A stretch of 41,687 nt of DNA from a virus, in IMG/VR virus record IMGVR_UViG_3300009790_003608, positions 1 to 41,687 of that record. One strand, 5' to 3'. The position numbers and the translations under genes are program-made. The notes below the pieces were generated by a model that saw nothing but the letters and a program-made list of their open reading frames with translations, did no database searches and was not told the origin of the DNA. Shown here in pieces: positions 1 to 14,567 of the stretch. Within the stretch, counting starts at the first letter, position 1, and each line of letters begins with the position of its first letter.

Positions 1-519
1 AGTAATAAACGTTTCATAAAACTCTAATAATAGTTTAGCATCTCCTGTAGTAGTACCATCTTCAGTACCTATAATAATCATTTCAGGATTTACCATATCC
101 CATTTTACAGTACCCATTGCTATTAAATAAGGGTTGTAAATAAATCTACCATTTGGTATTCTATCTATAAACTCTCTTCTTATGGTTCCAGGTAAAACTG
201 TAGATATAAGTACTATAAGCTGATCTTTATTTACATATTTGTTGACCTCTTCTAATATATTATTAACTATTGTATAATCAAAATCTTTATTAGGTAAATG
301 AGACGTTGGATAACGTCCGTCATAATCTGGATGATGAGGTGTTGGTACTGCTATAAAGATAAGTTCACGATCTTGACATACGTCTTTAATCGTAGGTACC
401 ATTTCAAAGTTTTCAGGGGATACTTCTGTTACGTCGTAACCTATAACTTCATGTTTTTCGGCCATCACTTCTGCCGATTCTCTGCCGAGTTTTCCAACTC
501 CAATAAAACCTACTTTCAT
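1..519 (-). CDS. UDP-glucose/GDP-mannose dehydrogenase family protein, N-terminal part (cut by window edge)
   Basis: 173 codons are visible with no stop; the C-terminal part lies beyond position 1. The N-terminus is a Rossmann nucleotide-binding fold with GxGxxG at residues 7-12 (GVGKLG) and an acidic residue ending the second strand (GYDV). Next come IFIAVPTP followed by a DG-containing loop, then STVLPGT, then NPYLIAMG with a following D and IIIGT. This order is the signature of the NAD-binding domain of nucleotide-sugar 6-dehydrogenases, which oxidise UDP-glucose or related sugars to uronic acids. The catalytic cysteine and C-terminal domain are not visible, so substrate and activity are open. 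Its ATG overlaps the stop of the upstream SGNH gene (ATGA), so the two are translationally coupled. It belongs to the glycan island and would supply or convert a sugar donor. Confidence 0.8.
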   Translation of the reverse strand, partial: MKVGFIGVGKLGRESAEVMAEKHEVIGYDVTEVSPENFEMVPTIKDVCQDRELIFIAVPTPHHPDYDGRYPTSHLPNKDFDYTIVNNILEEVNKYVNKDQLIVLISTVLPGTIRREFIDRIPNGRFIYNPYLIAMGTVKWDMVNPEMIIIGTEDGTTTGDAKLLLEFYETFIT

Positions 520-1181
520 ATTAACTTCACTGTGTCTTTATAAATATTTGTAAAAATTAAATCCGATAAATCTACATGCCATTCTTCTCCTGGGTGATTT
601 CCGTCTTCAGCTAAAGGATATCTTTTTTTTGAATCATTTTCAACCATACATGCTAATGTTTTGCTAGATATATCGTACGGTGCAATATTTTTAATGAGCC
701 TGTCTTTAAGTTTATTGTACCTATTATAAACCTCCACATGAACAGGAGGTTCTAGAAAAATATAATAAAATTTTAACGATTTAGAAACTAAATAACTAGT
801 AAATGTAGATATATTGATTATATTTTTTAAAAAACTATCTGTAGCGTTAGAATAGGTAAACTTATTTCGCATAAAATCTTCATGCCATTCTCCATAGTGA
901 GTTATTTTGGTTTCGTTAAAAAACATTTCTCTAGTATAAAAAGACCAAAGTATAATAACTATATCAGTTTTATGTAAATCATTAGATAAAAATTGATTAA
1001 TAATAAAGTCATTACCGTGACCAGGCTTAGCAAGATTCTTAACTGGTACATTTAACTTAGTAGCTAGTTTATTAGGCCATCCAAGCTTGCTAGGGTTCGG
1101 GCCAGGTTTAAATCCATCTACAATACAGTCTTTTAGCCCATGTCCATAAGTGTAACTATCTCCTCCTACTACTAATCTCAT
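516..1181 (-). CDS. SGNH/GDSL-hydrolase-like protein
   Basis: 221 residues. The N-terminus VVGGDSYTYG carries the GDS-type nucleophile block (Ser9), followed by a GHGND block at residues 54-58 that fits the block III glycine/asparagine of SGNH hydrolases. Near the C-terminus DGNHPGEEWH (193-202) fits block V, with Asp193 and His196 as likely catalytic partners. Enzymes of this superfamily hydrolyse or transfer acyl groups on sugars and lipids, so removing or adding O-acetyl groups on a glycan is a reasonable but unproven role. No signal peptide or membrane segment is seen. It is followed by a second SGNH-like gene upstream (start 1957), with which it shares the N-terminal and C-terminal blocks but little else, so they are diverged relatives. 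It ends in an ATGA overlap with the dehydrogenase-like gene. Confidence 0.72.
   Translation of the reverse strand: MRLVVGGDSYTYGHGLKDCIVDGFKPGPNPSKLGWPNKLATKLNVPVKNLAKPGHGNDFIINQFLSNDLHKTDIVIILWSFYTREMFFNETKITHYGEWHEDFMRNKFTYSNATDSFLKNIINISTFTSYLVSKSLKFYYIFLEPPVHVEVYNRYNKLKDRLIKNIAPYDISSKTLACMVENDSKKRYPLAEDGNHPGEEWHVDLSDLIFTNIYKDTVKLI
539..546 (-). promoter_or_regulatory. TATTTATA motif, candidate late promoter element
   Basis: Perfect copy of the recurrent 8-mer, 19 bases upstream of the dehydrogenase-like start at 519. It lies inside the 3' end of the preceding SGNH gene, so it may also simply be coding sequence. Confidence 0.3.
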
Positions 1182-1189
1182 TTTTTTAA

Positions 1190-1957
1190 CTATATTAACT
1201 TTTTTGGTTGTACTAAATAATTTTCTATTAGGTTATTATTCAACATAAAAGGTATTACTACATTTTTTGCGAAATATTTATGCCCTGATGGAAAAGGATG
1301 GTTGTCTTTACCGGTTGGTACTCCTTCAGGATAATTTTTCTTTAAATATTCGTAACATCCTTCTACTGGTAAAAACTTCTTAAAGTTAATATTTTGGTAA
1401 AGGTAACCAGTTTCTGGATTATTTTTTACATCTATATCAAAAAGTGAAGTATTAAATATGTCTAAATATGTAGTCATAAAATATTGAATATGTTTTGACT
1501 CAAGATAAAGTTGAAGAAATATAATACATTCTAAAGTGTTTATAATACTACCTATATTACTATGAAAAGTAGAGTAGTATAATAAAGAATGTTCATTATC
1601 CCAAAATGCATTAATAAAATACCACTTGTTATAGTTTTCTACAATACTACGTGGGTTGTATATATTATCTACAATACCATTTTTGCCCCAATCATTTGCG
1701 TTTAACTTATCTTCTGAATGAAAGCTCCATCGATCCGGACCTGACCACATTACTCCTACTACAATGTCTTCTGGTTTGGTAGTTTCAAGTTCTTTCTCTA
1801 CTTGTGCAACAATACTTTTTTTTATAAGATCATTACCATTTGATCCCATTGCAACGTTAACTAACTCTAAATCGTCTTTTAGTTCTTTATATACTTGTCC
1901 AGGCCAACACCAATCTTCATAAGTAAAGCTGCATCCACCTACTATAAGTTTTTTCAT
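1190..1957 (-). CDS. SGNH/GDSL-hydrolase-like protein
   Basis: 255 residues. It opens with LIVGGCSFTYE, giving a Ser10 nucleophile in the usual position right after the first strand. GSNGND at 38-43 corresponds to the GxND block, and D-N-H-P-x3-G-H at 218-226 to the Asp/His block, so the full SGNH catalytic set can be placed. The middle is rich in aromatic residues and has no recognisable second domain. The product is probably an esterase or acyltransferase acting on a carbohydrate, inferred from the neighbouring glycosyltransferases and sugar dehydrogenase. It may equally act on the host envelope. Start is the only ATG near the N-terminal strand; no clear Shine-Dalgarno is seen, but a TATTTATA motif lies 30 bases upstream. 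Confidence 0.72.
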   Translation of the reverse strand: MKKLIVGGCSFTYEDWCWPGQVYKELKDDLELVNVAMGSNGNDLIKKSIVAQVEKELETTKPEDIVVGVMWSGPDRWSFHSEDKLNANDWGKNGIVDNIYNPRSIVENYNKWYFINAFWDNEHSLLYYSTFHSNIGSIINTLECIIFLQLYLESKHIQYFMTTYLDIFNTSLFDIDVKNNPETGYLYQNINFKKFLPVEGCYEYLKKNYPEGVPTGKDNHPFPSGHKYFAKNVVIPFMLNNNLIENYLVQPKKLI

Positions 1958-1970
1958 AGGCGAAAAAAAG

Positions 1971-3476
1971 TTATATTAGTTTCTTATTATAAATAGTTCT
2001 TTCCCATTTCTTAGTTTTGCTAAAATCTTGTGGAAAATATTCATACAGTTTTTGATGACGATCATTAACTCTCGTTAAATCCATTAAAACATTAAAGTTA
2101 TGTATTAACCTACTTTCTATATCTATTGAAATACTTTTCCAATATTCTAAAGGACGATTAACTATTGAATCCATAGTATTAAATAACTTATTAAGACGTT
2201 CTTCCATAGGACCTGGTTCATCATAACTTTCATCCCAACAGTCATCGAAAGTTTTATACCCTAACTTTTTAAGTAACTTTAAACTTCCTGGGTTACCAAA
2301 TATAACGAATGGTTGTGCTGTGTAAATAGCTCTAAATGTTTTTTCACTTAAGAAAAGTTCATTGTCATCTTTTGAACGTTGGTGTGTTTCTATTACGATA
2401 TTTACAAAAGCATCTCTATGAAGATCTTCAGGTAATACACCAGCCCAGTTTACATATTGATCTGTTCTATCCCAGGCAAATCCATCTTTATAGTTAAAAT
2501 ACTTCTTAAACCATTCTAAAATAGTATTCTGATAAGGTTCTGATAGGTGTAGTAGTTTTACCTCCATTTCTGTGTAGTTATAATCAGCACCGTAAGGATT
2601 AAGTAAACTATACATACAGTTTTCTCTTAAAATAGGAGTATGATATATTTTATGAAAAATTGCTGCTCTTTCAGCAGAAAATCTTCTAGCTAAACACATA
2701 AAATGTTTAGTTGAGTTATGGTAACGCCTATAATTTAAAAATTTATGAAAATTTTTATAATGCTCTGCTCTATCCCACACAGTTTGTTTGTACATATTTT
2801 TTGTAAACCAAAATGCTTCTTCAAACTGATTATTTATTCCAAAACTAAATCTAGTTTTTTTATTATGTTTAATCTCCCATTTTTCTATAACATCTCCTAG
2901 TTTATAGTTTGCACTTTCAACTATAACTTGATCAGGTTCTAAATCAAACTTATATATAAAAGATTCGAACCAATCTATGTCTCCTAAACTATTTAAAAAC
3001 CCTTCACAATCTTGATAAAAAAGTATTTTAGCATTTCCTTCCTTTATATAATCAACAAGTACTTTTGGAAGCTCTATTTTATTTAAGTTTACTGTTGTTA
3101 CTGATTCGTTATATATTGGGGAAGGAACAAGAAACTTAATACCTTTATCGATTAAATCTAAATAATGTCTTCTAACAAAAATATAGTTAGGATGAAGAAA
3201 ACCATAGTTAAACAAACTTATTTTTTCCTGAACTATTTTATCTAAGTTACTTAGTTGTTCTTGAGATAATGGAAACTTTATACTAAGCTCTCTTTCAGCA
3301 TCACTATAACCTGAATCCCAAACTTTAAAATGCTGATTCATTGTTTTACCCCATTCGTTATTACGAAGAATAACTGGTAGCATAATAGAGTATTTGTTAT
3401 GCTCATTGTTAAAGGTACATTCTTCAATCAGAGGTAAGTCATATCCAAGAAATATTCTTCTATTATACGATCCCAT
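1971..3476 (-). CDS. Glycosyltransferase-like protein with fucosyltransferase-type C-terminal motif
   Basis: 501 residues. The clearest feature is at about 371-420: DNELFLSEKTFRAI, then QPFVIFG and a GYKTFDD...DESYDE stretch. An SEK/F-A/QPF pattern of this kind marks the nucleotide-sugar-binding C-terminal half of GT-B enzymes such as alpha-1,3-fucosyltransferases (GT10), and of related uncharacterised phage proteins. The N-terminal 350 residues are not recognised. Donor and acceptor cannot be deduced. It starts one base after the stop of the 279-residue glycosyltransferase, so they are co-transcribed. The alternative is a non-catalytic relative of the GT-B fold. Confidence is good that it is glycan-related, lower for the exact family. 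Confidence 0.55.
   Translation of the reverse strand: MGSYNRRIFLGYDLPLIEECTFNNEHNKYSIMLPVILRNNEWGKTMNQHFKVWDSGYSDAERELSIKFPLSQEQLSNLDKIVQEKISLFNYGFLHPNYIFVRRHYLDLIDKGIKFLVPSPIYNESVTTVNLNKIELPKVLVDYIKEGNAKILFYQDCEGFLNSLGDIDWFESFIYKFDLEPDQVIVESANYKLGDVIEKWEIKHNKKTRFSFGINNQFEEAFWFTKNMYKQTVWDRAEHYKNFHKFLNYRRYHNSTKHFMCLARRFSAERAAIFHKIYHTPILRENCMYSLLNPYGADYNYTEMEVKLLHLSEPYQNTILEWFKKYFNYKDGFAWDRTDQYVNWAGVLPEDLHRDAFVNIVIETHQRSKDDNELFLSEKTFRAIYTAQPFVIFGNPGSLKLLKKLGYKTFDDCWDESYDEPGPMEERLNKLFNTMDSIVNRPLEYWKSISIDIESRLIHNFNVLMDLTRVNDRHQKLYEYFPQDFSKTKKWERTIYNKKLI
1988..1995 (-). promoter_or_regulatory. TATTTATA motif, candidate late promoter element
   Basis: Perfect copy 30 bases upstream of the SGNH gene start at 1957. 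It overlaps the last codons of the upstream gene, so it is weaker evidence than the intergenic copies. Confidence 0.3.
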
Positions 3477-3477
3477 A

Positions 3478-4317
3478 TTATATTGTAACTATTTTATCTT
3501 TTAAGGTATCCCAATGTGGGTAATCGTTATACCCTATACAAGAAAGTTCTTTCATATTTTCGACTAAAAACTTAAGATTGCTTACATCTATTTTCCAACC
3601 AGAATCTTTAATAGCATCATACATAACTTTATATTCATCAGAAAAAGAATAGTCTTTTTTGTTATCTGCTACTTTTTTTATCCTTTCAATACATGTACTA
3701 TCCCATTTAAAATGATGCACTTGAGTAAATATTTCATTTACAGGCATTCTTCTAGCATGACCAGTCCCCCAGCTATTAGTTCCATCGTTAAATGTAGCAT
3801 AATGTTGTCCTGAAGATACTTTCTGATGTCCTTTCATTAAAGTTACTTTATTAGGACATGCGCCAGACATTGGGTATCTAAAAAATCCAGCTAATGGAAA
3901 AGCTTTATGAATATTTGTATCTCTAGTAACTTCAGGAAAAGTACCATCTATACCTATACGATCTAAAAAACCACCTGTAACAAAATCATATCCGTATCTC
4001 TCACAGTTCTTTATTATATCGTCTATTGGTTCAGGATATACTTGTAGTTCGTCATCATCAGCTACTATCCACCAGTCATTAGGTTTAGTCTGTTTAATAG
4101 TATTGTATATCTCTGTAACTCTATTCCAGTTATATTTAGGTTCAGTAAAAACCATAAATGGTTCTATACCTAACTCTTCTATTTCTTCTAATATACCATC
4201 ATCATCACTTTGACGATATACCGCTACGTATGCTTTATCTATAACATCTTCATAATGTTTTAACATATGAGGGAGTAAATGAGTATTTTCTCCTACTACT
4301 GTAACTAAGTTCGCCAT
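3478..4317 (-). CDS. GT2-type glycosyltransferase (GT-A fold)
   Basis: 279 residues. The protein begins with a short strand (LVTVVGE) and a helix, as in minimal GT-A enzymes of the Glyco_tranf_2_4 type. WWIVADDDE at 82-90 supplies the acidic DxD-like metal/nucleotide-sugar motif, and HHFKW at 201-205 fits the C-terminal His-containing motif of this family. It should transfer a sugar from a nucleotide donor; the acceptor is unknown. No membrane segment is seen, so it is cytoplasmic. Its ATG overlaps, as TAATG, the stop that ends the frame-restored GT7 gene upstream, which supports both the start chosen here and the frame repair proposed there. Confidence 0.75.
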   Translation of the reverse strand: MANLVTVVGENTHLLPHMLKHYEDVIDKAYVAVYRQSDDDGILEEIEELGIEPFMVFTEPKYNWNRVTEIYNTIKQTKPNDWWIVADDDELQVYPEPIDDIIKNCERYGYDFVTGGFLDRIGIDGTFPEVTRDTNIHKAFPLAGFFRYPMSGACPNKVTLMKGHQKVSSGQHYATFNDGTNSWGTGHARRMPVNEIFTQVHHFKWDSTCIERIKKVADNKKDYSFSDEYKVMYDAIKDSGWKIDVSNLKFLVENMKELSCIGYNDYPHWDTLKDKIVTI

Positions 4318-4421
4318 TATAACTCTATATTTAACATTTTAGCCCAAGGAGTAAGTTTATCTTCTCCTATTAGTTTATACTTTACTTGTTTAATACCATC
4401 ATTTTTATATTCCCAGGTACC
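4317..4421 (-). pseudogene. Displaced C-terminal tail of the GT7-LamG gene (one-base frame break)
   Basis: Reading from 4421 in the -1 frame gives 34 codons beginning GTWEYKNDGIKQ and ending MLNIEL, then TAA. It corresponds to the C-terminal end of the neighbouring paralog, where QKDG...LKY and a final LEVKL occupy the same places. The TAA overlaps the next gene's ATG (TAATG). Adding these codons gives 465 residues, against 464 in the paralog. The break lies at the five-A run at 4422-4426. Confidence 0.8.
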
Positions 4422-5713
4422 TTTTTCATTTCTAAAACGTATCTTCTTTCGTTTCTTGCAGTAGTTTCACCTTTTACCCATTTACCATTTACTAAACCTT
4501 CGTCTTTATGAGGTAAACATTCAAATCTACCGGGGCGTCTATGAGGAATAATAGAGTTAGGAACTATAACTTCTTCTGAAACCTCTCTAGTATCAAACTT
4601 TTCTAACATATCTATATTGTACTTATAAATAAGTCCATCTGTAGGTATCTCTTTATGTAATAAACTTACTTCTTCACTAGACAGAGCACGATTCCATATT
4701 TTTAAATCTGCAATATCTCCTTTAAAAAATTTAGCAGGATCATTTTCACCATATGATGGTGTAGTTCCTAAATATATTCGTTTTAATCCATAAGATTTTA
4801 ACTTACCAGAATATTTCCATGGAGATTCACTACCATGCCCAGCTTTACTGTCAACTTCTGTACCATTTAGATAAAAATGACTAAGATTTTTACTATTATC
4901 AAATACAACAGTAACCCAACTCCACTGACCTTCGTATCTCTTTAACCACATATAGTTATGTTGATTAAAACTATTCCAATACTGTAAAGTTAAAGCTCTA
5001 GAGTTATTAAAAGAAATACCGTAATCATAACCTGGTATTCTTAATATAGGAAACTCTACAAAAGGTGTTTCTTTAGAACCTATTAAATGAACTGGTATTT
5101 TATCTGGAAGTTGATATGCTCTGCATAAAATAGATACTGTATGAGAAGATGAAGTAAAGTTTTTAAAGTTTCTATTATTAGGTAATCTAGCCCATGAACG
5201 ATCTCCATCGAAAGATAAGTAACGTCTTTTGGTAAAAGGAACATCTAAATAAGTATCATTAGTAAAACCTTCTAAATGACATCTCCAAAAAAGATCATCA
5301 TCTTCCATTCCCCAATCCCAATAGTCGTTAGAGTAACCATTAGTAGCTTCTACCTGTTCCTTTGAAAATAAAACCGCCCCACCAAAATATTCATGATACT
5401 TAAGACCATAGTCCATCTGTGAGATATTAGTAGCAATATGTATAGGAGTATCTTTAGGGTAAGAATAATCTACTCCTTTTTCAGGTATCATATCTATATC
5501 ATGCCATACTACATAATCACATCCTTCTTCAAAAGCATGTTTTGCAGCTATATTTTTTGTTGCACCTCGATTAAAAAGTTTATCATCTACTTGATGAGCA
5601 AAATACATTTGAAACTCTATACCTTGTTCCTTAAGATGTTTACCAACCCTTGGTATAAACATATTTAAATGTTCTTCTCTATTTCTATATGGTACACAAA
5701 CTCCTAACTTCAT
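4382..5713 (-). CDS. GT7-family glycosyltransferase with inserted LamG domain (frame broken near 3' end)
   Basis: As read, 443 residues. Residues 1-165 are a GT7 (beta-1,4-galactosyltransferase-like) GT-A domain: VPYRNR at 7-12, WHDIDM with the DxD at 72-74, FGGAVLF, and the hallmark WDWGMEDDD at 132-140. Residues about 166-385 form a concanavalin-like LamG domain (SFDG, FYLNGTEV, FFKGDIADLKIW). Then the GT7 C-terminal part resumes (PHRRPGRFECLPH). The lectin domain is therefore inserted within the enzyme rather than appended. After EMKK the frame changes, giving an unrelated tail that ends at 4382; the expected tail is in the -1 frame down to 4317. The gene starts in an ATGA overlap with its paralog upstream. 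It probably transfers galactose or an N-acetylhexosamine, with LamG as acceptor-binding module; this is inferred from family only. Confidence 0.8.
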   Translation of the reverse strand: MKLGVCVPYRNREEHLNMFIPRVGKHLKEQGIEFQMYFAHQVDDKLFNRGATKNIAAKHAFEEGCDYVVWHDIDMIPEKGVDYSYPKDTPIHIATNISQMDYGLKYHEYFGGAVLFSKEQVEATNGYSNDYWDWGMEDDDLFWRCHLEGFTNDTYLDVPFTKRRYLSFDGDRSWARLPNNRNFKNFTSSSHTVSILCRAYQLPDKIPVHLIGSKETPFVEFPILRIPGYDYGISFNNSRALTLQYWNSFNQHNYMWLKRYEGQWSWVTVVFDNSKNLSHFYLNGTEVDSKAGHGSESPWKYSGKLKSYGLKRIYLGTTPSYGENDPAKFFKGDIADLKIWNRALSSEEVSLLHKEIPTDGLIYKYNIDMLEKFDTREVSEEVIVPNSIIPHRRPGRFECLPHKDEGLVNGKWVKGETTARNERRYVLEMKKVPGNIKMMVLNK

Positions 5714-7104
5714 AGTTTTACTTCTAAATGATTGTAGTTACCGTTATTAAAACTATTACGTACTGTATATTTTAAAGTAGATAAACCGTCTTTTTGGTAA
5801 TCTGATCTATTTTCATAGTATTTACGTAAATATCTAAGTTGATTTTCTCTACTAGTCCAGTTTATCCAATACCCATCTTTATATCCGTTTTCTTTATGTG
5901 GTAATACTTTAAACTCCCCTTTTCTACGGTGGGGTAATGGTTTTTTAATATCTTTTTGTACTGGTGTATATATTTGATTGCAGTTATGAATATATCCGTG
6001 GTTATCTCCTGCTAAATCTATTAACGTATTACCATTTACGTTTAACATTTCATAATAATGTTTAATATTTTCACTATACTTCTTATTAAAAAGAGTAAGA
6101 TCAGTGCAAGAACTTAGATGAAGTGATGCTCTTTCGTTTAAATCAGTATCAAAAATAGCAAATCTATCTATTGTACCTTTAAACCAGTTATTTTTTTCTT
6201 CTCTATTAGGATCTCCTACTCCTAAATATAACATACTACTTTTTTGAATAAGAGATAGTTTATCGAAACCATTACTTCCTACTTTAATACCGTTTACATA
6301 TAATGTAGCTAATGGAGTTGTTGTGTTATTAACAGTAACTAATGCATTTACATGACCTTGTGGAAAAAGTTTACTTGTTATAGAAATACTACCTAAATCT
6401 TTTTTCCAGAACTGAAAGTAAATATCAAAAAATGAGTTAACAGCTAAAGTAGTATCAAAACCAGGTATACTAAAAATAGAGTTGTTATCTGTTATTTCTT
6501 TTTCTACACTGTTTATTTTATTTAAGTCAAATGATGTAAATATAGAAAAGTTTCTTGAAGATTTTAATGTATTTTTTATACCAACAAAACTATCTTTACC
6601 GTTAAACTCCAATCCAACGTTATTTCTTGTATATTGAGGTATAGTTTTAGTATTTATATCTATTCCATTTTCTACACAACGCAAGAATACATCATCATCT
6701 TCAAACCCCCATCCATAATAGTTATTAGAATAACCGTTAATCTGTCTATAAACGTTAACTGGAAAAAGAGTAACTCCTCCAAAGTAGTTATCGAATAAAT
6801 CTCTTTTAATACCAGGTGGTAACTTTAAATCAGTAATAAGATGTACAGGATAATCACTGTAAGAATAATCAGCAGATATAGGTAACATATCTATATCATG
6901 AAATACTACATAATCACAACCTAGTTCTTCTGCTTTTAAAAAACCTATATTAAGTAACTTTCCTCTATTAAACTCCTTATTGTCGGTTTGTTCAACTACT
7001 ATAAGGTGATAAGGTGTTGAAATAAAATCTTTTAAGGCTTGTTTAAACTGAGATAGTTGATTAGGTCTATTTCTGTATGGAACTACTATCCCCAGTTTTT
7101 TCAT
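5710..7104 (-). CDS. GT7-family glycosyltransferase with inserted LamG domain
   Basis: 464 residues, intact. GT7 motifs are VVPYRNR (7-13), FHDIDM with DxD at 70-72, YFGGVTLF (107-114) and GWGFEDDD (131-138), where the second acidic cluster normally includes the catalytic base. Residues about 165-380 are a LamG/concanavalin-like jelly roll (EFNGKDSFV, TLYVNGIKV, WFKGTIDRFAIF). PHRRKGEFKVLPH at 391-403 and the end (ENQLRYLRKYY, DGLSTLKY) return to the GT7 fold. The start is supported by a good Shine-Dalgarno, AGGAGA, seven bases before the ATG. It overlaps the end of the 71-residue gene by 38 bases, and its stop overlaps the next paralog's start (ATGA). The two GT7-LamG genes arose by tandem duplication and have diverged strongly. 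Confidence 0.85.
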   Translation of the reverse strand: MKKLGIVVPYRNRPNQLSQFKQALKDFISTPYHLIVVEQTDNKEFNRGKLLNIGFLKAEELGCDYVVFHDIDMLPISADYSYSDYPVHLITDLKLPPGIKRDLFDNYFGGVTLFPVNVYRQINGYSNNYYGWGFEDDDVFLRCVENGIDINTKTIPQYTRNNVGLEFNGKDSFVGIKNTLKSSRNFSIFTSFDLNKINSVEKEITDNNSIFSIPGFDTTLAVNSFFDIYFQFWKKDLGSISITSKLFPQGHVNALVTVNNTTTPLATLYVNGIKVGSNGFDKLSLIQKSSMLYLGVGDPNREEKNNWFKGTIDRFAIFDTDLNERASLHLSSCTDLTLFNKKYSENIKHYYEMLNVNGNTLIDLAGDNHGYIHNCNQIYTPVQKDIKKPLPHRRKGEFKVLPHKENGYKDGYWINWTSRENQLRYLRKYYENRSDYQKDGLSTLKYTVRNSFNNGNYNHLEVKL

Positions 7105-7282
7105 CTGTTTCTCCTATGTATTTTTCCTTCCATAGAGAAAGGTACCATGCTAATCTATCACTCCATTCTTCTTTATCGATTTCTTCAAACCATAAACTAA
7201 GACTATCAAGATTAGAGGCTATTTTTTCTAAGGCTTTTACCTTTCTTTCTTCTAGTAAAACTTTTTCTGTATCAAAACTCAT
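7067..7282 (-). CDS. Small acidic helical protein, unknown function
   Basis: 71 residues. The N-terminal half is a charged helix (EERKVKALEKIASNL) with coiled-coil-like spacing, followed by a tryptophan-rich acidic stretch (SLWFEEI, WSDRLAWYLSLW). It has no known catalytic motif. The 3' end overlaps the GT7 gene and contains that gene's Shine-Dalgarno, so the pair is translationally linked. It could be a small partner or chaperone of the glycosyltransferase or a fibre assembly factor; neither is shown by the sequence. Confidence 0.6.
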   Translation of the reverse strand: MSFDTEKVLLEERKVKALEKIASNLDSLSLWFEEIDKEEWSDRLAWYLSLWKEKYIGETDEKTGDSSSIQK

Positions 7283-7311: not shown

Positions 7312-8025
7312 TCAAACTTTTTTCTGCAAAAGTGTTATTCCAGTAGAAGAAGGCTTTCCTTTTAAAACTCCTTCGTTAAAAAGATTGAAAGTTTTCCAAC
7401 CTTCAGGAATATCTTTTATAAACTTTGCAGGACCATCAAATGATTGATAGTCTTTTTCTTTTATTTCATCAGTGACTATATAGTTATCGTGATAACTTTG
7501 ATCAGTGTCGTGAATACTAATGATACCGTTATCATTTAAAATAGTACTGTACAGTTCAAAATCTTTTTTTACTCCTTCGTAAGAATGATCTGCATCTATG
7601 TGTAAATAATCTATTTTTAAATCTTCTTTAACAAAAAAGTTATGAAAAGCATTTTCTGTAGTATCTAATATAACTCTTGGGTGAAAATAACTTCTAAAAA
7701 AACTATCTTTTTCTTTCCAATCATTAACACCTCCTACTTCATTAGCAGCATCTACTACAAAAACGTTTGTTTCATTCCATTTTCTACATTCATCGAATAT
7801 TTGTTGTTCAACCAGATCACATTGAGCTTGTATCATTAATCTAGGAATAAATCCTCCACCAGAACCTAAACATACTACTATTTTACTCCTCAACATCTGT
7901 ATAAGAGAGTATATTAATAAACCATCACCTAAGTGTTTATCAGTAGCTCCATGAGTCCATCTATATGCTACTGGTTTATCAATATTATTAGTAATATTTT
8001 CTGTTATAAAATGATAGTTTAACAT
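7312..8025 (-). CDS. Class I SAM-dependent methyltransferase
   Basis: 237 residues. The first strand and glycine loop VVCLGSGGG (50-58) fit motif I for S-adenosylmethionine binding. DYLHIDADHSYEGVKKDF (139-156) and IISIHDT (168-174) match the methyltransferase-24 type, in which the IDADHSYEG Asp residues bind metal or substrate. Related proteins are often found among surface-polysaccharide genes, where they O-methylate sugars. The N-terminal GATDKHLGDG stretch is also usual in this type. Here it lies between glycosyltransferases, so methylation of a glycan is the best guess; protein or small-molecule methylation cannot be excluded. Confidence 0.78.
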   Translation of the reverse strand: MLNYHFITENITNNIDKPVAYRWTHGATDKHLGDGLLIYSLIQMLRSKIVVCLGSGGGFIPRLMIQAQCDLVEQQIFDECRKWNETNVFVVDAANEVGGVNDWKEKDSFFRSYFHPRVILDTTENAFHNFFVKEDLKIDYLHIDADHSYEGVKKDFELYSTILNDNGIISIHDTDQSYHDNYIVTDEIKEKDYQSFDGPAKFIKDIPEGWKTFNLFNEGVLKGKPSSTGITLLQKKV

Positions 8026-8034
8026 AAAATCAGA

Positions 8035-8880
8035 TTATAGTTCGGTCCATTCTATTAATATACGATTTTTTATGGTATTTTCCAACTGTTCTATTTCGTC
8101 ATCATATGAAAATCCATCAGCATTTTCTCTTATAGATTTTTTTTCTTTCCAATAATGACGATAGTATTTATAAGCATCTTTATATTTAAGAATACCATTA
8201 GATTTACCAAAAAATCTAGATTCATCACTTTTATATACCTTGTCTATAAGCGTCTCATATTGTATCTCATGAATGTCTAGTAGATGCTTAAGTAATAACT
8301 GTTCAGCATAGATTAAATATTTAGAGTTAGGTGCTTTTAATCGTGTGAACTCAGTCATTAACTCTAAACTTGTGGTTGCATATGATTGTGTAAACCTATA
8401 ATCTGGGAAGTATAAGAAGCTACAGTTTATAGCGTCAAGGTTAGGTCTGCTTATTATATGTTTTACCTGTCTTATAATAGAATCCATAGGACCTAGATAA
8501 TAACCATCACCATCTTCCTCATGAGCTACTACTATTTTATCTCTTAAAAACTTTTCAAAGCTTTTATATACTACAAAATCGTTATCCATAATAACGACAG
8601 GGCCTTTCACTCTACTTAATACTTGAAGTTTTGAAGAAGCCCAAAAAACATTTTTATCTACAAACTTATTATCAGCTAATATTTCAATATTATCCCATAA
8701 CTCTAGTACACTTAACTTATTAAACGTTTCATAAGTAAGTTCATCTATATGTAACTCAGTAGTATATGAAGGATTATGTTTTTTCCATTGTATAACAGAA
8801 GCAAACATCATTAGTAAGTCAAACTTAGTGTAGAAAGACTTATGTTTTCTAATATTTTCTAAAACCCAGATTATCTTCAA
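8035..8880 (-). CDS. Probable glycosyltransferase (GT-A-like, DUF6734-like)
   Basis: 281 residues. An N-terminal strand (KIIWVLENI) is followed by PVVIMDNDFVVY at 94-105, whose DND is in the right context for a DxD metal/nucleotide-sugar motif. Further on come NCSFLYFPD (151-159) and YAEQLLLKHLL (190-200), an arrangement seen in uncharacterised glycosyltransferase-like families of bacteria and phages. The start codon is TTG (8878-8880); AGGA lies two bases before it and there is no ATG near the first strand, so the start is less sure than others. It is the first gene of the glycan island after the adhesin block. Confidence 0.6.
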   Translation of the reverse strand: MKIIWVLENIRKHKSFYTKFDLLMMFASVIQWKKHNPSYTTELHIDELTYETFNKLSVLELWDNIEILADNKFVDKNVFWASSKLQVLSRVKGPVVIMDNDFVVYKSFEKFLRDKIVVAHEEDGDGYYLGPMDSIIRQVKHIISRPNLDAINCSFLYFPDYRFTQSYATTSLELMTEFTRLKAPNSKYLIYAEQLLLKHLLDIHEIQYETLIDKVYKSDESRFFGKSNGILKYKDAYKYYRHYWKEKKSIRENADGFSYDDEIEQLENTIKNRILIEWTEL

Positions 8881-8888
8881 ATCCTATA

Positions 8889-9335
8889 TTAAGTAAAATA
8901 GGCGTAAAAGTTTTGTTGAGATGTGTAATCAGAGACTGTTAAGTCAAGGTCTGCTGAAGTACTTATTTGAGATCCTCCTCCTCCTGAAGCTGTTCTCCAT
9001 TCTGAAAAGTTATAAGGGTAAGTACCTGCTGCTGTTAATCTAACATAACTATATGTGCCGTAGTCTACATTTTTTATTTGTAATGTTCCTGTTGAAGTTC
9101 CAGAGGTATATGGATAAGTGATTTGAACAGTACCATTAGTTCCTGCTACTACATTACCATAAAACCAACTTCTATTATATATTTCACTCACACTAGATGG
9201 ATTACTTGCTGCTGGATAAGCATCTGATAGTACTGTAGAAAGTGTAATATCAGTGTTATCAGTAAATCCTGCATTTGACCAAACATCGAAACTGCCGAAG
9301 TTTACGTTTGAAGTTGTGTAAGTATATACAGCCAT
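8889..9335 (-). CDS. Small beta-rich virion-like protein, unknown
   Basis: 148 residues, rich in Ser, Thr, Tyr and Gly, with no charged helices, no signal peptide and predicted mainly beta. YTYTTSNVNFGSFDVW opens the protein and ASGGGGSQIS precedes a C-terminal strand-rich stretch. Composition matches the adjacent fibre and adhesin proteins rather than the enzymes that follow, so I infer a structural or fibre-tip role. I do not recognise the family. It is separated from the next upstream gene by one base. Confidence 0.55.
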   Translation of the reverse strand: MAVYTYTTSNVNFGSFDVWSNAGFTDNTDITLSTVLSDAYPAASNPSSVSEIYNRSWFYGNVVAGTNGTVQITYPYTSGTSTGTLQIKNVDYGTYSYVRLTAAGTYPYNFSEWRTASGGGGSQISTSADLDLTVSDYTSQQNFYAYFT

Positions 9336-9336
9336 T

Positions 9337-9885
9337 TTATTTTTTTACTATTTTCTTTCCAAACTTTTTTTCAAGTTCTTCTTTTAAATGTTGATAAGCA
9401 AACTCAAAAGGTTTTTCCATTAAGGAATAATCTATTAGTTTTCTTTTTTTAGTTACCGTATTAACTTGTACCTTTTCTTCTCTTTTTACTGTCTTTATTT
9501 TTTCTATTTCATCTCCATTTTCATCAAATGAAATAAAAGGTACTTGTTTTTCGACAACTTTTTTTTCGTAGATCGGTTGATCAATATTAACCTCAACTAC
9601 TGTTGGAACTTTATAGTAGTTTTCTATAGCTACTTCTGTTCCTTCTATATCGTCTTTATTTTTATAATAGACGACTTCTTTATTAACTAATCCTCCAGCA
9701 TTCGTTAGAGGATCATCTAAATATTTTCTATAAAACTTACTTGCTGCTTTTTTATTAATCCAGCAAGTTGTTGTATACTCTAACTGAGCTTGTACCTTAT
9801 TGATCCTACATGTTTCTATTCTAATGTAGGCCTCTTTAGTTGAACCTCTGCTAGTGTCTAACTCTGCTTTTATAACTAATCCCAT
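9337..9885 (-). CDS. Protein of unknown function, charged
   Basis: 182 residues. The N-terminal 100 residues are mixed alpha/beta (GLVIKAELDT, YIRIETCRINK, TTTCWINKKAASKFY). The middle consists of alternating Lys/Glu/Val strands (YEKKVVEKQVPF, KREEKVQVNTV), and a C-terminal helix (HLKEELEKKFGKK) is strongly charged. Its composition differs from the Gly/Ser-rich neighbours, and it looks like a folded accessory protein, perhaps a fibre chaperone or adaptor. This is guesswork. A TATTTATA motif lies 23 bases upstream. Confidence 0.55.
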   Translation of the reverse strand: MGLVIKAELDTSRGSTKEAYIRIETCRINKVQAQLEYTTTCWINKKAASKFYRKYLDDPLTNAGGLVNKEVVYYKNKDDIEGTEVAIENYYKVPTVVEVNIDQPIYEKKVVEKQVPFISFDENGDEIEKIKTVKREEKVQVNTVTKKRKLIDYSLMEKPFEFAYQHLKEELEKKFGKKIVKK

Positions 9886-9927: not shown

Positions 9928-11553
9928 TTATACAAAGTTTGTTTTAGTAGCGTTATAAAAGCTTGTTACGTCGGCTTGAGTGAAATGTTCATTATAAAAT
10001 GCTACAATACCTATTAACCCATTGTGAAAGTATCTAGTCGTTGAACCTATACCTCCTACTGTAAAGGGTAAACTACCGTTACCTCCCATGTTTATTGAAG
10101 AGTTTGTTGCACGAGATGTAGTATCAAGATATAAAGTATGATTCCCACTTGAATCTAATGTTTGAGTTATCATATACCAAGTACCATCAGACAAAGTATA
10201 TGATACTTCACCTCCAGTATTATTTCCTATATAATAATATAAGTTACTATTAGAGTTAACTCTTCCTACATAGTTATAAGAATTGCTTTCTTGCCAACCT
10301 GATAATGAATATCCATCGGTTCCATTACCATCAAAACGCATCCATTTTATTAAAGTCTGTTTAGTACTTGGTCTAGTTAAACTATGGTAAATTTTATCAT
10401 TACTACCGTCAAAAGTATAATAAGGAGTATTGTTTAATGTAGCTCCATCTACAGTACCGTTCCTTCCATTACCTGATAAGTCTGTAATAGTAGAAGAACC
10501 TCTAGAGGCAAAATCATCAGGTCTCCATAATATAGCTAAATCACTTTGTTTAGGTATCACAAAATCAGAAGTAGAACCTACATTAAATGTTCCTGATACG
10601 TTAAACTGATTATATTTTCTACCATTACCAGCATCTCCTATTATACCTCCGGCACAATCAATAGAACCACTATCGTAAGCTACTATAACAACTCCTGATC
10701 CTCCTTCTTTACCGTAGTTATCAGCACCTCCGCCGCCTCCTCCTCCACCGGTATTAGCAGTACCTGCTTGTGCTACAGCAGTATTACCTCTTGCTCCAAC
10801 TCCTCCACCTCCGTCACCGGGTGATGTAGCTGATTGTCCTGTAGATACTCCACCAGAACCTCCCCCTGCTCTAGTAACTGAAGCACCGGTTATTTTACTT
10901 GCTTTTCCATCTCCTCCTGCACCGTTTCCATCGGTGTTACCAGCTTCAGATGCTCCTCCGCCACCACCTCCCGGGTAAGCGCCACTCGCTACTCCATTAC
11001 CACCGGCAAACCCTTGACCTGCAGTTCCTGAAGCTCCCGAAGTATCGTATGCTCCTCCTCCACCGGAACCTCCACCACCAGCTTCTCCACCTTGTTTAGA
11101 TCCTCCTCCACCTTCAACTGTAGATATAGTTGTTATTGTAGAACCAGCTATTGAAGAAACATTTCCATTTCCTCCGTTTGTATTACCTGCTACGGATCCT
11201 CCAGCTCCAACAGTTATTGTAAAAGTCGAACCTGAAGTTACACTATCTATTGAAGATGATAAATAACCTCCTGCTCCACCTCCACCAGAGTTAGAGTTTG
11301 ATCCACCTCCTCCACCGCCAGCTATTACAACGTATTCTATATTACTACTACCTCCACCTCCTGCTGGTGCAGTTTGTGTTCCTACAATCTCCCAAGCATT
11401 ACCGGTATAAACTTTTACAACATTATCTGTAGTATCATGATATATACTTCCTGTATTAGGATTAGTAATAGAAGAAGAAATAGGATGTCTGGGAAGAGTT
11501 AAAGATCCTGATGTTGTAGTGTTACCGTTAAGAAATGGACTAAATACCTTCAT
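9928..11553 (-). CDS. Glycine-rich adhesin-like protein with C-terminal LamG domain
   Basis: 541 residues in three parts. Residues 1-65 are a short N-terminal module ending TGSIYHD...VKVYTGNAWEIVG, shared with the paralog starting at 13632. Residues about 70-310 are a glycine-rich domain that begins IEYVVIAGGGGGG, contains repeated GGGG runs, and closes with GSGVVIVAYDSGS and a SGTFNV strand. Residues about 330-541 are a LamG/concanavalin-like domain (YYTFDGSNDKIYHS, HTLYLDTTS, FHNGLIGIVAFYNEHF). Polyglycine domains of this sort form the receptor-binding tips (gp38 adhesins) of T-even-like phages, and LamG domains commonly bind carbohydrate. I infer a receptor-binding virion protein. It is the last and only LamG-bearing member of the four-gene glycine-rich run. 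Confidence 0.72.
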   Translation of the reverse strand: MKVFSPFLNGNTTTSGSLTLPRHPISSSITNPNTGSIYHDTTDNVVKVYTGNAWEIVGTQTAPAGGGGSSNIEYVVIAGGGGGGSNSNSGGGGAGGYLSSSIDSVTSGSTFTITVGAGGSVAGNTNGGNGNVSSIAGSTITTISTVEGGGGSKQGGEAGGGGSGGGGAYDTSGASGTAGQGFAGGNGVASGAYPGGGGGGASEAGNTDGNGAGGDGKASKITGASVTRAGGGSGGVSTGQSATSPGDGGGGVGARGNTAVAQAGTANTGGGGGGGGADNYGKEGGSGVVIVAYDSGSIDCAGGIIGDAGNGRKYNQFNVSGTFNVGSTSDFVIPKQSDLAILWRPDDFASRGSSTITDLSGNGRNGTVDGATLNNTPYYTFDGSNDKIYHSLTRPSTKQTLIKWMRFDGNGTDGYSLSGWQESNSYNYVGRVNSNSNLYYYIGNNTGGEVSYTLSDGTWYMITQTLDSSGNHTLYLDTTSRATNSSINMGGNGSLPFTVGGIGSTTRYFHNGLIGIVAFYNEHFTQADVTSFYNATKTNFV

Positions 11554-11556
11554 AGT

Positions 11557-12187
11557 TTATGCTGTATATGTTCCTGATCCTGAAAATATTAATATTGTTT
11601 TGTTACCGTCTGTGGTTACAGTTGGTGAACCTGTTGTTGTACCGGTATAGTTTGATGTAGGCATTCTTAATATTACTACTCCAGATCCTCCAGCACCATG
11701 ATGAGAAGTACCATACCCATAAGCTCCACCTCCTCCACCTCCGGTGTTAGCTGTTCCATCAGTTCCATGACCGTCAGGTTGGTATGTACCACCTGCTCCA
11801 CCTCCACCTGTTCCTCCTGCAACAGCAGATGCTCCATATCTACTATCAGTATGAGAACCTCCTCCTCCTGCTCTAAATGTAGATACTCCTGTTATAGTAG
11901 AAGCTAAACCTGCTCCACCATCACCGCCGGCATTGTGGTCTGTACCGTTAGTACCAGCAGCACCAGCTCCACCGCCACCACCGCCTCTATAGTATATACC
12001 GTTAGCAGTAGAAGATCCTCCTCCGCCACCTCCGTCATTACCTTGACCTACAGTACCTGATCCTCCAGATCCACCACCTGCTACATTATTAGCAGAAGCA
12101 TGCAAACCGGCTCCTCCACCTGATCCTCCAGCTCTACCGTTATCAGGAGTATAACCATTATGTCTACCACCTCCTCCTCCACCTGTT
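11557..12187 (-). CDS. Glycine-rich adhesin-like protein, 3' part of a frame-broken gene
   Basis: This is the C-terminal continuation of the gene that starts at 12626. Read in this frame from about 12187 it begins TGGGGGGRHNGYTPDNG, directly where paralogs have their first poly-glycine run. It continues through GTVGQGNDGGGGGG and ends with GSGVVILRM, SPTVTTDG and SGSGTYTA, nearly the same as the end of the paralog at 14567-13629. There is no convincing start of its own: a TTG at 12105 is available but lies inside the glycine-rich domain. If it is not made by frameshifting, it is probably not translated. Confidence 0.65.
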
Positions 12188-12626
12188 AAGTAATAGTAGT
12201 TATAGTTGATGATTCTATAGTAGTATCAGTACCGTCACCCCCTTGTACATACCCACCTGTTGATAGGGCTCCTCCTGCAGCTCCTCCACCTATAGTAAGA
12301 GTAAACTCAGTTCCAGGAGATACTGAAGATATAGAAGATGATAAATAACCTCCAGCACCTCCTCCGCCACCCCAGCCTCCGCCGGCTGCTCCTCCAGCTA
12401 TAGATAAATACTCGATATCATAAGGAGGGGGTGGTGGGGTTACCTGTGCACCAACTGTTTCCCATCCGTTAGTATTAGCTACTACAACTGTATTAGTTTC
12501 AGTATTTAAAAATAAACTACCAGATAATGGAGTCTGAGGATAAGAACCAGTTCCATAACCGTAAGGAATCTGAAAAGATCCTGTCATGTTTAATGTTCCG
12601 AATATGTCTACGTCTTGAAACTTCAT
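12186..12626 (-). CDS. Glycine-rich adhesin-like protein, 5' part (frame broken at about 12188)
   Basis: 146 residues as read, starting at the ATG at 12626 four bases after the stop of the upstream paralog; the reading frame is open further upstream, but that would overlap the paralog. The N-terminus MKFQDVDIFGTLNMTGSF has the G-x-L-x-x-T-G-S-F pattern seen at the start of several fibre proteins here. Then come GSLFLNTETNTVVVANTNGW and IEYLSIAGGAAGG, the entry to the glycine-rich domain. It stops at TAA right after SSTITTIT. In three paralogs the same position is followed by a glycine run, and the -1 frame supplies one. The repaired product would be 356 residues. Confidence 0.65.
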   Translation of the reverse strand: MKFQDVDIFGTLNMTGSFQIPYGYGTGSYPQTPLSGSLFLNTETNTVVVANTNGWETVGAQVTPPPPPYDIEYLSIAGGAAGGGWGGGGGAGGYLSSSISSVSPGTEFTLTIGGGAAGGALSTGGYVQGGDGTDTTIESSTITTIT

Positions 12627-12630
12627 AATA

Positions 12631-13632
12631 TTACGGGGTTGAAACTGTAAATGTACCAGAGGATGTAAAGGTATGAACTTTAAATCCATCCCCTCTAGTT
12701 GATATAGTATTTCCTCCTGTAGCAGAAATCTTATTAGGATCGTATGCTAATATAACTATTCCTGATCCTCCTGCTACACCTGCTGTTATATTAGAACCAC
12801 CAGCTCCTCCTCCAGTGTTTACTGTACCTACCGTACCTTGTGCAGAGTTACCACCTGCACCACCTCCTCCAGAACCGCCGGCTCCTCCCCCACCACCACC
12901 AGAGGCTCCTCCTCCTCCGCCAGCATAATATGTTGCGACACCAGTTATGTTAGTCTGTTTACCTATACCCCCAGGTTTACCAGCTCCTCCTGAGTTAACA
13001 CCGGCTCCTCCAACAGCTCCGGCACCACCTCCACCTGAACCAGGGTAAGTAGTTCCTCCTCCAGAAGTACCGGAAGTTCCTCCGTTATTACCCTGACCAA
13101 CTGTACCTGTTCCTCCTGGGTTATTATATTGTCCACCAGCTCCTCCTCCACCTGAGCCTCCGTTTCCAGCTGTGTAAGAAGAACCATATCCAGATCCATT
13201 TCCTCCTCCTATTGAAGTTACGGTAGAAAAAGAAGTTCCTGCAGCACTAACTAAAGTAGAATCATCTCCGTTACTATATGCTGCTCCTCCACCTCCAACG
13301 GTAACAGTTATTTGAGTACCAGATTCTACTGATGATAAAGAAGCACTTAATAAACCGCCGGCTCCTCCTCCACCACCTCCGTCGTATGAAGATCCACCGC
13401 CTCCTGCTACAACTAGGTATTCTATATCAGCTGGTTGATATGATGTTGGAGCTGTTTGTGTACCTATAATAGACCAAGCATTACCAGTATAAACTTTAAC
13501 TACATTACCTACTGTATCGTGATATATACTACCAGTTAATGCATTTACACTACCGCTGTTAGGATGGTTTGGTAAAACAAACGACCCACTTACTACAAAT
13601 GATCCGGTAAGTTCTATATTTTCGTGTATCAT
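12631..13632 (-). CDS. Glycine-rich adhesin-like protein
   Basis: 333 residues, intact. The N-terminus MIHENIELTGSFVVSGSF carries the shared fibre entry motif, followed by TGSIYHDTVGNVVKVYTGNAW, which matches the LamG-bearing paralog almost word for word. The glycine-rich domain starts IEYLVVAGGGG at about residue 70 and ends GSGIVILAYDPN, with a final SSGTFTVSTP strand. There is no LamG domain. The start overlaps the previous gene's stop (ATGA). The likely role is a receptor-binding or fibre-tip protein. The presence of several such proteins in a row suggests alternative or hetero-oligomeric tips. Confidence 0.7.
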   Translation of the reverse strand: MIHENIELTGSFVVSGSFVLPNHPNSGSVNALTGSIYHDTVGNVVKVYTGNAWSIIGTQTAPTSYQPADIEYLVVAGGGGSSYDGGGGGGAGGLLSASLSSVESGTQITVTVGGGGAAYSNGDDSTLVSAAGTSFSTVTSIGGGNGSGYGSSYTAGNGGSGGGGAGGQYNNPGGTGTVGQGNNGGTSGTSGGGTTYPGSGGGGAGAVGGAGVNSGGAGKPGGIGKQTNITGVATYYAGGGGGASGGGGGGAGGSGGGGAGGNSAQGTVGTVNTGGGAGGSNITAGVAGGSGIVILAYDPNKISATGGNTISTRGDGFKVHTFTSSGTFTVSTP

Positions 13633-14567
13633 GCTGTGTAAGTACCTGAAGAAGTATAAGTTAATATAGTATAAGAGCCATCTGTTGTAACACTAGGGGA
13701 ACCTGTAGTTGTACCGGAATATTTAGATGTTAACATTCTTAGTACTATAACTCCTGAACCTCCAGTTCCTCCATTTCCTGTTCCAACTGGTCCATTTCCT
13801 ACACCTCCAGCACCACCACCGCCACCTCCGGTGTTAACAGTTCCTACAGTTGCATTAGCGCTACCAACTGCTCCGGCTCCTCCTCCACCAGAGCCTCCAA
13901 CTCCTGCAGCTAAACCAGAAGAATTATACACTCCACCACCGCCACCACCACCTCTGGTAACAGCAGCTCCTGTTATTGTTGATGATAATCCATTACCACC
14001 TGTACCACCTGCTCCTGAAGAACCACCAGCAGTTCCGGCTGTTCCGGCACCACCGCCTCCTCCTCCACGATAAACACCACCAGTAGATCCTCTTCCTCCA
14101 TCAGTACCTTGACCTGTGGTTCCTGATCCGTAGGTAGCTAACTCAGCTCCACCTCCACCACCAGACCCACCGTTTTGAGCTGTACCGGTGCTATAATCAG
14201 CTCCACCACCACCTCCAATACTAGTAATAGTAGTTATTCCTGAACCTGCTATTGATGAACTACCTCCATCATCACCAGCTGCATTAGATGCTGCTGTTCT
14301 TCCAGTACCCCCAGCTCCAATCGTAATAGTAAACTCAGTACCTGAAGTAATACTTAAAGCAGATTCTGTAGAAGAACCACCTCCTGAAGTTTCTGATCCG
14401 GCTCCTGCATATGATGTTCTATATCCTCCAGCACCGCCTCCACCGGTATAAGCTATTCCACCACCTCCGCCTCCAGCGATAACTAAAAAATCCATATTAT
14501 AAGTAACTGGTGGCGGACCAGCAGTAGTAACTGCGTCCCAACCACTTCCGGATACTCCATTATACAC
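13629..14567 (-). CDS. Glycine-rich adhesin-like protein (possibly 3' half of a gene split by a stop)
   Basis: 312 residues from a GTG. The glycine-rich domain opens MDFLVIAGGGGGG and closes GSGVIVLRM, SPSVTTDG and SSGTYTA. The GTG start cuts through a module that is complete in the paralogs: upstream in the same frame lie 44 sense codons (14568-14699), including STPQSGSLWYNTNTGKLE, equivalent to NPNTGSIYHD...VKVYTGNAW in the neighbours. Immediately before them is the TAA that ends the upstream gene. No ATG, GTG or TTG exists between that TAA and 14567. Either translation starts at this GTG with a shortened N-terminus, or the gene is the second half of a 15377-13629 gene. Confidence 0.65.
   Translation of the reverse strand: MYNGVSGSGWDAVTTAGPPPVTYNMDFLVIAGGGGGGIAYTGGGGAGGYRTSYAGAGSETSGGGSSTESALSITSGTEFTITIGAGGTGRTAASNAAGDDGGSSSIAGSGITTITSIGGGGGADYSTGTAQNGGSGGGGGAELATYGSGTTGQGTDGGRGSTGGVYRGGGGGGAGTAGTAGGSSGAGGTGGNGLSSTITGAAVTRGGGGGGGVYNSSGLAAGVGGSGGGGAGAVGSANATVGTVNTGGGGGGAGGVGNGPVGTGNGGTGGSGVIVLRMLTSKYSGTTTGSPSVTTDGSYTILTYTSSGTYTA

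Follow-up and report, generated by a model that had tools for sequence, protein, structure and literature searches.

The window analysed here is the whole 41,687-nucleotide stretch of the viral record IMGVR_UViG_3300009790_003608. It encodes two tandem proteins, named A and B, in which a LamG domain is nested inside a glycosyltransferase of the GT7 family. The architecture of these proteins, the insertion point, the conservation of the catalytic residues and of the gene pair, and the genomic setting were all computed here. An initial annotation, made from the sequence alone, had described both proteins as GT7 enzymes with an internal LamG domain, and profile searches against Pfam matched all three families above their curated cut-offs. 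E-values for A and B were 2.5e-16 and 2.2e-16 with Glyco_transf_7N, and 5.1e-18 and 1.2e-15 with Glyco_transf_7C. Laminin_G_3 matched within residues 171-350 of A (5e-15) and residues 221-324 of B (8.6e-9).

The position of the LamG domain was assayed with a hidden Markov model (HMM) of 225 positions, built from 20 un-nested GT7 proteins recovered in a scan of bacterial genomes. In B, profile positions 2-153 aligned with residues 2-152 and positions 152-224 with residues 392-463. In L081, an intact orthologue of A, positions 3-150 aligned with residues 2-151 and positions 149-213 with residues 388-454. In both proteins, the two GT7 pieces thus abut in the profile but are separated by about 240 residues in the protein, with LamG between them, indicating that the GT7 core is almost wholly kept and that LamG is inserted at a single point. 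The back piece alone was recognized by the same HMM (E = 1.6e-10 for B and 7.1e-8 for A), while the best of 400 shuffled back pieces reached only 0.37. These E-values and shuffles rule out a chance occurrence of motifs. Fusion of LamG at one end of the enzyme was rejected as well, since profile, alignment and structure models all show nesting, as the initial annotation had claimed. A circular permutation of LamG was also considered and rejected, pentraxin-type LamG domains ending in the same way. The nested GT7-LamG layout is therefore real.

Gene A of the window carries a frame break. Compared to a 97%-identical relative (L001), its frame is shifted over the last 40 codons or so, and the open reading frame (ORF) therefore stops at 4382. 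The homologous C-terminus runs on in another frame to 4317, with its stop codon at 4319-4317, and the back part of A is in frame only to about 4424. The boundary initially placed at 4317 is thus correct for the end of the homologous C-terminus, but not for the window ORF itself. Copies of A in relatives are intact (L001, L081 and others), and L081 was used for the structure tests of A. The break at 4317-4424, seen against both L001 and L003, is possibly an assembly or sequencing error, or a real mutation.

AlphaFold models were built with 62-64 aligned relatives. They were confident for both B (mean pLDDT 93.4, pTM 0.87) and the A orthologue L081 (mean pLDDT 89.3, pTM 0.79), and predict a complete GT7 fold, including the C-terminal part, in B and, for A, in L081. 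B4GalT1 and B4GalT7 were the closest solved structures by sequence. In Foldseek searches against the PDB, the GT7 part matched the catalytic domain of B4GalT7/B4GalT1 over about 150-165 columns; the LamG part separately matched pentraxins, the LamG domain of PAPP-A and CBM40. When the two GT7 pieces were artificially joined and searched against the PDB with phmmer, no convincing extension through the back part was obtained, unlike with the un-nested GT7 profile. A fold search of BFVD revealed no full nested layout among the 50 matches listed; these aligned to the GT7 part, to the LamG part, or to longer stretches that were poorly superposed (root-mean-square deviation up to about 20 Å, TM by query <= 0.41).

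Alignment with human B4GalT1 placed the insertion point some 12 residues N-terminal to the His corresponding to the Mn2+ ligand. In B4GalT1, the lid comprises residues 338-365, in which His343 binds Mn2+; it closes over the donor and forms a helix needed for the acceptor (PMC6198961). LamG thus sits just ahead of the lid, at its base. Among the aligned relatives, DxD, WGxED, the Tyr preceding FGG and the metal His did not vary in any of the 64 A and 62 B sequences. Judging from this conservation, A and B are likely to be enzymatically active. Within LamG, conserved positions include D206 and G215 of B and E220 and G228 of A. In animal enzymes, a Tyr at the position preceding FGG is associated with the use of UDP-Gal as donor.

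The nested layout is not restricted to the window. Relatives of A are encoded in 176 viral stretches, of which 80, 55-97% identical, were kept. When these loci were inspected, the tandem pair recurred, B preceding A, in 75 of the 80, with the two genes overlapping or adjacent in most. Four of the five others end at a contig edge, and L073 is without B in reach. A broader search yielded 481 viral GT7 relatives; the collected viral loci contain 49 un-nested ORFs and more than 220 that match in two widely spaced pieces, a tally in which some contigs figure twice. Full-length nested matches in three "bacterial" genomes (L086, L087 and L089) correspond to the same tandem pair in contigs of metagenome-assembled genomes, which we read as phage contigs in bins. 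No match at E<=1e-3 was obtained when A, B and an un-nested viral GT7 were compared by tblastn with 50,697 phage records, a set from which close records may be missing and where the same search mode found the window capsid protein in 2498. We found no description of a LamG or lectin insertion in phage glycosyltransferases in the open-access literature. The nested layout is thus widespread in metagenomes and apparently undescribed.

In a tree of the GT7 core calculated without the insert, nested and plain proteins were split with one change, versus 31.8 expected from shuffled labels, the branch between them having an SH-aLRT of only 58. The insertion site is common to A and B, which agrees with a single LamG insertion followed by gene duplication, the simplest reading. 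Other variants were also detected. A third nested GT7-LamG copy lies upstream of B in several loci (L065:953-2413, L068:884-2341, L054:1669-3144 and others). In the L068 copy, the catalytic Glu of WGxED is replaced by His (YGFHD), so some third copies may have lost activity. B variants of about 431 residues have a short insert of about 197 residues (L079:3709-5004, L036:3712-5004 and similar). LamG is below the Pfam cut-off in some of these (L079) and in some third copies. Finally, viral GT7 ORFs of about 430 residues have a C-terminal core and a long N-terminal part without identification (L146:3332-4627, L169:3305-4624, L172:3302-4627, L183:3320-4636).

Features of the window around genes A and B. 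Positions are those of the window.
Feature	Position	Strand	Basis and remarks
Gene A, 443 aa	4382-5713	-	ORF of the window
Protein A, GT7 front part, residues 1-157 (PYRNR, HDIDM, YFGG, WGMEDDD)	5243-5713	-	Pfam 7N/7C; B4GalT matches in PDB
Protein A, nested LamG, about residues 158-387	4553-5242	-	Laminin_G_3 5e-15; boundaries from profile and alignment
Protein A, GT7 back part (PHRRxGRFxCLPH...)	4317-4552	-	un-nested GT7 profile
Gene B, 464 aa	5710-7104	-	ORF
Protein B, GT7 front part, residues 1-156	6637-7104	-	Pfam; un-nested GT7 profile
Protein B, nested LamG, about residues 157-388	5941-6636	-	Laminin_G_3 8.6e-9; pentraxin/CBM40/PAPP-A LamG fold matches
Protein B, GT7 back part, residues 389-464 (invariant metal-type His403, DGLSxLxY)	5710-5940	-	back-piece E 1.6e-10
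Overlap of B end and A start, 4 bases	5710-5713	-	consistent with coupled translation
SGNH/GDSL-like cassette member	516-1181	-	sub-threshold Pfam
DUF6071-like cassette member	1190-1957	-	sub-threshold Pfam
Cassette member, family not assigned	1971-3476	-	no Pfam match; kin in 40 loci; glycosyltransferase label a guess
Family-2-like glycosyltransferase (GT2_4)	3478-4317	-	Glyco_tranf_2_4 E 1.2e-5, just under cut-off; 77/83 loci
Small gene, 71 aa, preceding B in most relatives	7067-7282	-	gene clusters; 65 loci
Methyltransferase, Methyltransf_24	7312-8025	-	Pfam; 64 loci
DUF6734 protein	8035-8880	-	Pfam
Two small genes (clusters 9 and 8), linking cassette to tail-fibre genes in relatives	8889-9885	-	
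Gly-rich adhesin with C-terminal LamG, outside the conserved cassette	9928-11553	-	Laminin_G_3

The capsid protein of the window is of the Gp23 type and, among phage records, is most similar to that of Flavobacterium phage immuto (64.5%). On this basis, the window is likely to derive from a T4-like phage of Bacteroidota, with Flavobacteriia as likely hosts, the host being deduced from the capsid. Four relatives were examined beyond their 5-kb flanks (G003, G005, G014 and G019). In the last three, the gene order is a tail-fibre-like gene, the small genes of clusters 8 and 9, DUF6734, methyltransferase, GT2_4, the small gene (70 residues), B, A and a radical SAM protein. A tail-fibre-like gene likewise lies upstream of the cassette in the jumbo contig G003. 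The window contains the same gene set, but GT2_4 follows A and no radical SAM gene stands beside A. The radical SAM-like proteins (cluster 1, 79/83 loci, sub-threshold in Pfam; for example L029:6401-7834 and L038:6473-7906) are often multicopy and directly follow A in most relatives. Cassettes of relatives additionally encode an NDP-sugar epimerase, RmlC-like, cytidylyltransferase, TPP-enzyme and stand-alone LamG proteins. Glycosyltransferases thus adjoin virion genes in the four relatives and in the window, an arrangement taken as one mark of a virion-glycosylation cassette. A crude hydropathy scan of the four cassettes flagged no multi-pass membrane protein, flippase, polymerase or membrane-anchored glycosyltransferase. 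This would favour cytosolic protein glycosylation over a lipid-linked polysaccharide, although host enzymes could supply the missing steps of the latter.

The LamG domain at the end of the adhesin, pointed out in the initial annotation, was confirmed: Laminin_G_3 matched with E = 2.3e-9 when the C-terminal 220 residues were scanned alone, while the whole-protein scan missed it. Compared to profiles of the nested inserts, this domain scored 7.5e-5 (B insert) and 0.014 (A insert), versus 3.5e-16 and 7.9e-16 for the stand-alone LamG proteins of relatives' cassettes. The LamG of cluster 7 is thus closer to the nested LamG than that of the adhesin. Examples of such stand-alone proteins, LamG or LamG-like, are L051:7941-8675 and L035:7767-8354 (clusters 7 and 10). 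The Gly-rich adhesin family was not found in 20/20 pair-carrying relatives searched, and a query with the adhesin protein found nothing either. Several of these relatives are fragments, so this absence is no proof for each genome. As a positive control, the family search recovered all four window copies. These copies are four Gly_rich_2 matches in successive adhesin-like genes (9928-14567), which may form a host-recognition module that was acquired recently or changes fast.

Our favoured reading, held with moderate confidence, is that A and B are paralogous cytosolic GT7 enzymes, guided by their LamG domains, that glycosylate a phage-made glycoconjugate, perhaps the tail fibre. The LamG insertion would date back to a single ancestral phage GT7, at the foot of the lid, and duplication of the gene into A and B would have followed. 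It would hold the growing glycan, or its carrier glycoprotein, and so place the acceptor at the neighbouring active site, in a form of lectin-guided transfer for which GalNAc-T1 (PMC10901373) and MGAT4A (PMC9296478) are precedents. The substrate of A and B, shared with the remaining enzymes of the cassette, would most probably be a protein of the virion, such as the tail fibre, modified prior to assembly. Sugar binding by LamG, enzymatic activity and target are what we infer here. In both proteins the first GT-A strand stands at the very N-terminus, and a membrane segment was not flagged in either; they therefore appear to be cytosolic, where a glycan on the outside of the host would be out of reach. 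The position of the cassette behind tail-fibre genes favours a glycan of the fibre, the second target suggested in the initial annotation, which is perhaps the one acted on. Several points weigh against this reading: LamG domains bind proteins too, a cassette next to fibre genes is also to be expected if the host surface is altered, and the negative result on membrane proteins comes from a crude scan, with only four relatives viewed beyond the 5-kb flanks. A further, rather unlikely reading is that LamG, built into the hinge of the lid, participates in catalysis, its ligand controlling lid closure or acceptor choice in cis like a built-in alpha-lactalbumin. If so, A and B could together assemble a glycan of defined or repeating structure on the fibres of the phage.

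The cassette might instead modify the lipopolysaccharide or capsule of the host during infection, with LamG bound to the host glycan under synthesis at the cytosolic side, and so prevent re-adsorption, whether of the same phage or of rivals. The NDP-sugar enzymes and several glycosyltransferases of relatives' cassettes fit such a role, as does a capsid related to that of a Flavobacterium phage, which suggests a Bacteroidota host, and glycosyltransferase clusters of jumbo cyanophages have been interpreted in this way (PMC7824862). However, no flippase, polymerase or membrane-anchored glycosyltransferase was flagged in the four cassettes, and the pair is kept at 55-97% identity over its full length, while the cyanophage clusters are described as sporadic and polymorphic. 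We regard this explanation as possible rather than probable. Somewhat doubtful is the idea that LamG is no lectin but a protein-protein docking or dimerisation module joining A, B and the stand-alone LamG proteins. LamG/pentraxin domains often oligomerise and the stand-alone proteins are nearer kin of the insert than the adhesin LamG, but a location at the lid, where the acceptor site is formed, points to a part in handling the acceptor, and the window, like many of the loci, has no stand-alone LamG gene.

That the enzymes dock on the glycan bound by the adhesin, as initially suggested, was not borne out and is very improbable. Both carry LamG and lie only about 3 kb apart; however, the LamG likeness is generic, the adhesin family was not found with the pair in the 20 relatives, and the adhesin would work extracellularly, whereas the enzymes appear to be intracellular. 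GT7 is not known as a family of DNA glycosyltransferases, and the cassette sits among late tail genes. Glycosylation of modified phage DNA by A and B is thus hardly to be expected, even though phage glycosyltransferases modifying DNA exist (discussed in PMC12619734).

The front parts of A and B are about 30-36% identical to B4GalT7/B4GalT1 (CAZy GT7) by fold alignment and have in common with them DxD, WGxED, the Tyr before FGG and the metal His. In contrast, the animal enzymes are membrane-anchored in the Golgi and have no insert, the lid strand directly following the EDDD helix. Un-nested bacterial and viral GT7s (for example from Azospirillum and Halieaceae, and the 49 viral ORFs) have the same core and back part, co-linear over the 225 profile positions, without LamG. 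In GalNAc-transferases, the lectin domain is C-terminal. The same holds for MGAT4A (PMC9296478), whereas the phage LamG lies inside the catalytic domain and has another fold. In lectin-guided enzymes such as GalNAc-T1 (PMC10901373) and MGAT4A (PMC9296478), the lectin domain steers or boosts the activity of the catalytic domain; for the phage enzymes, sugar binding by LamG is predicted. In lactose synthase, alpha-lactalbumin changes the acceptor specificity of B4GalT1 (PMC6198961), but as a separate protein and not as an insert, and the comparison with LamG is an analogy only. Phages with sets of several glycosyltransferases, compared here by description only, include the jumbo cyanophages (PMC7824862) and the moraphages, aquatic jumbo phages with predicted Bacteroidota hosts and four core glycosyltransferase orthologous groups (PMC12619734); the available parts of these two reports do not mention a nested LamG.

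These proteins represent a conserved case of a lectin-like fold placed inside a GT-A glycosyltransferase at its mobile lid, and not appended to a terminus. Should acceptor choice be steered by LamG, this would be another evolutionary route to lectin-guided glycosylation, and a natural template for engineering specificity into B4GalT-type enzymes. The pair is also the marker of a glycan cassette that is widespread among uncultured, T4-like phages of aquatic habitats.

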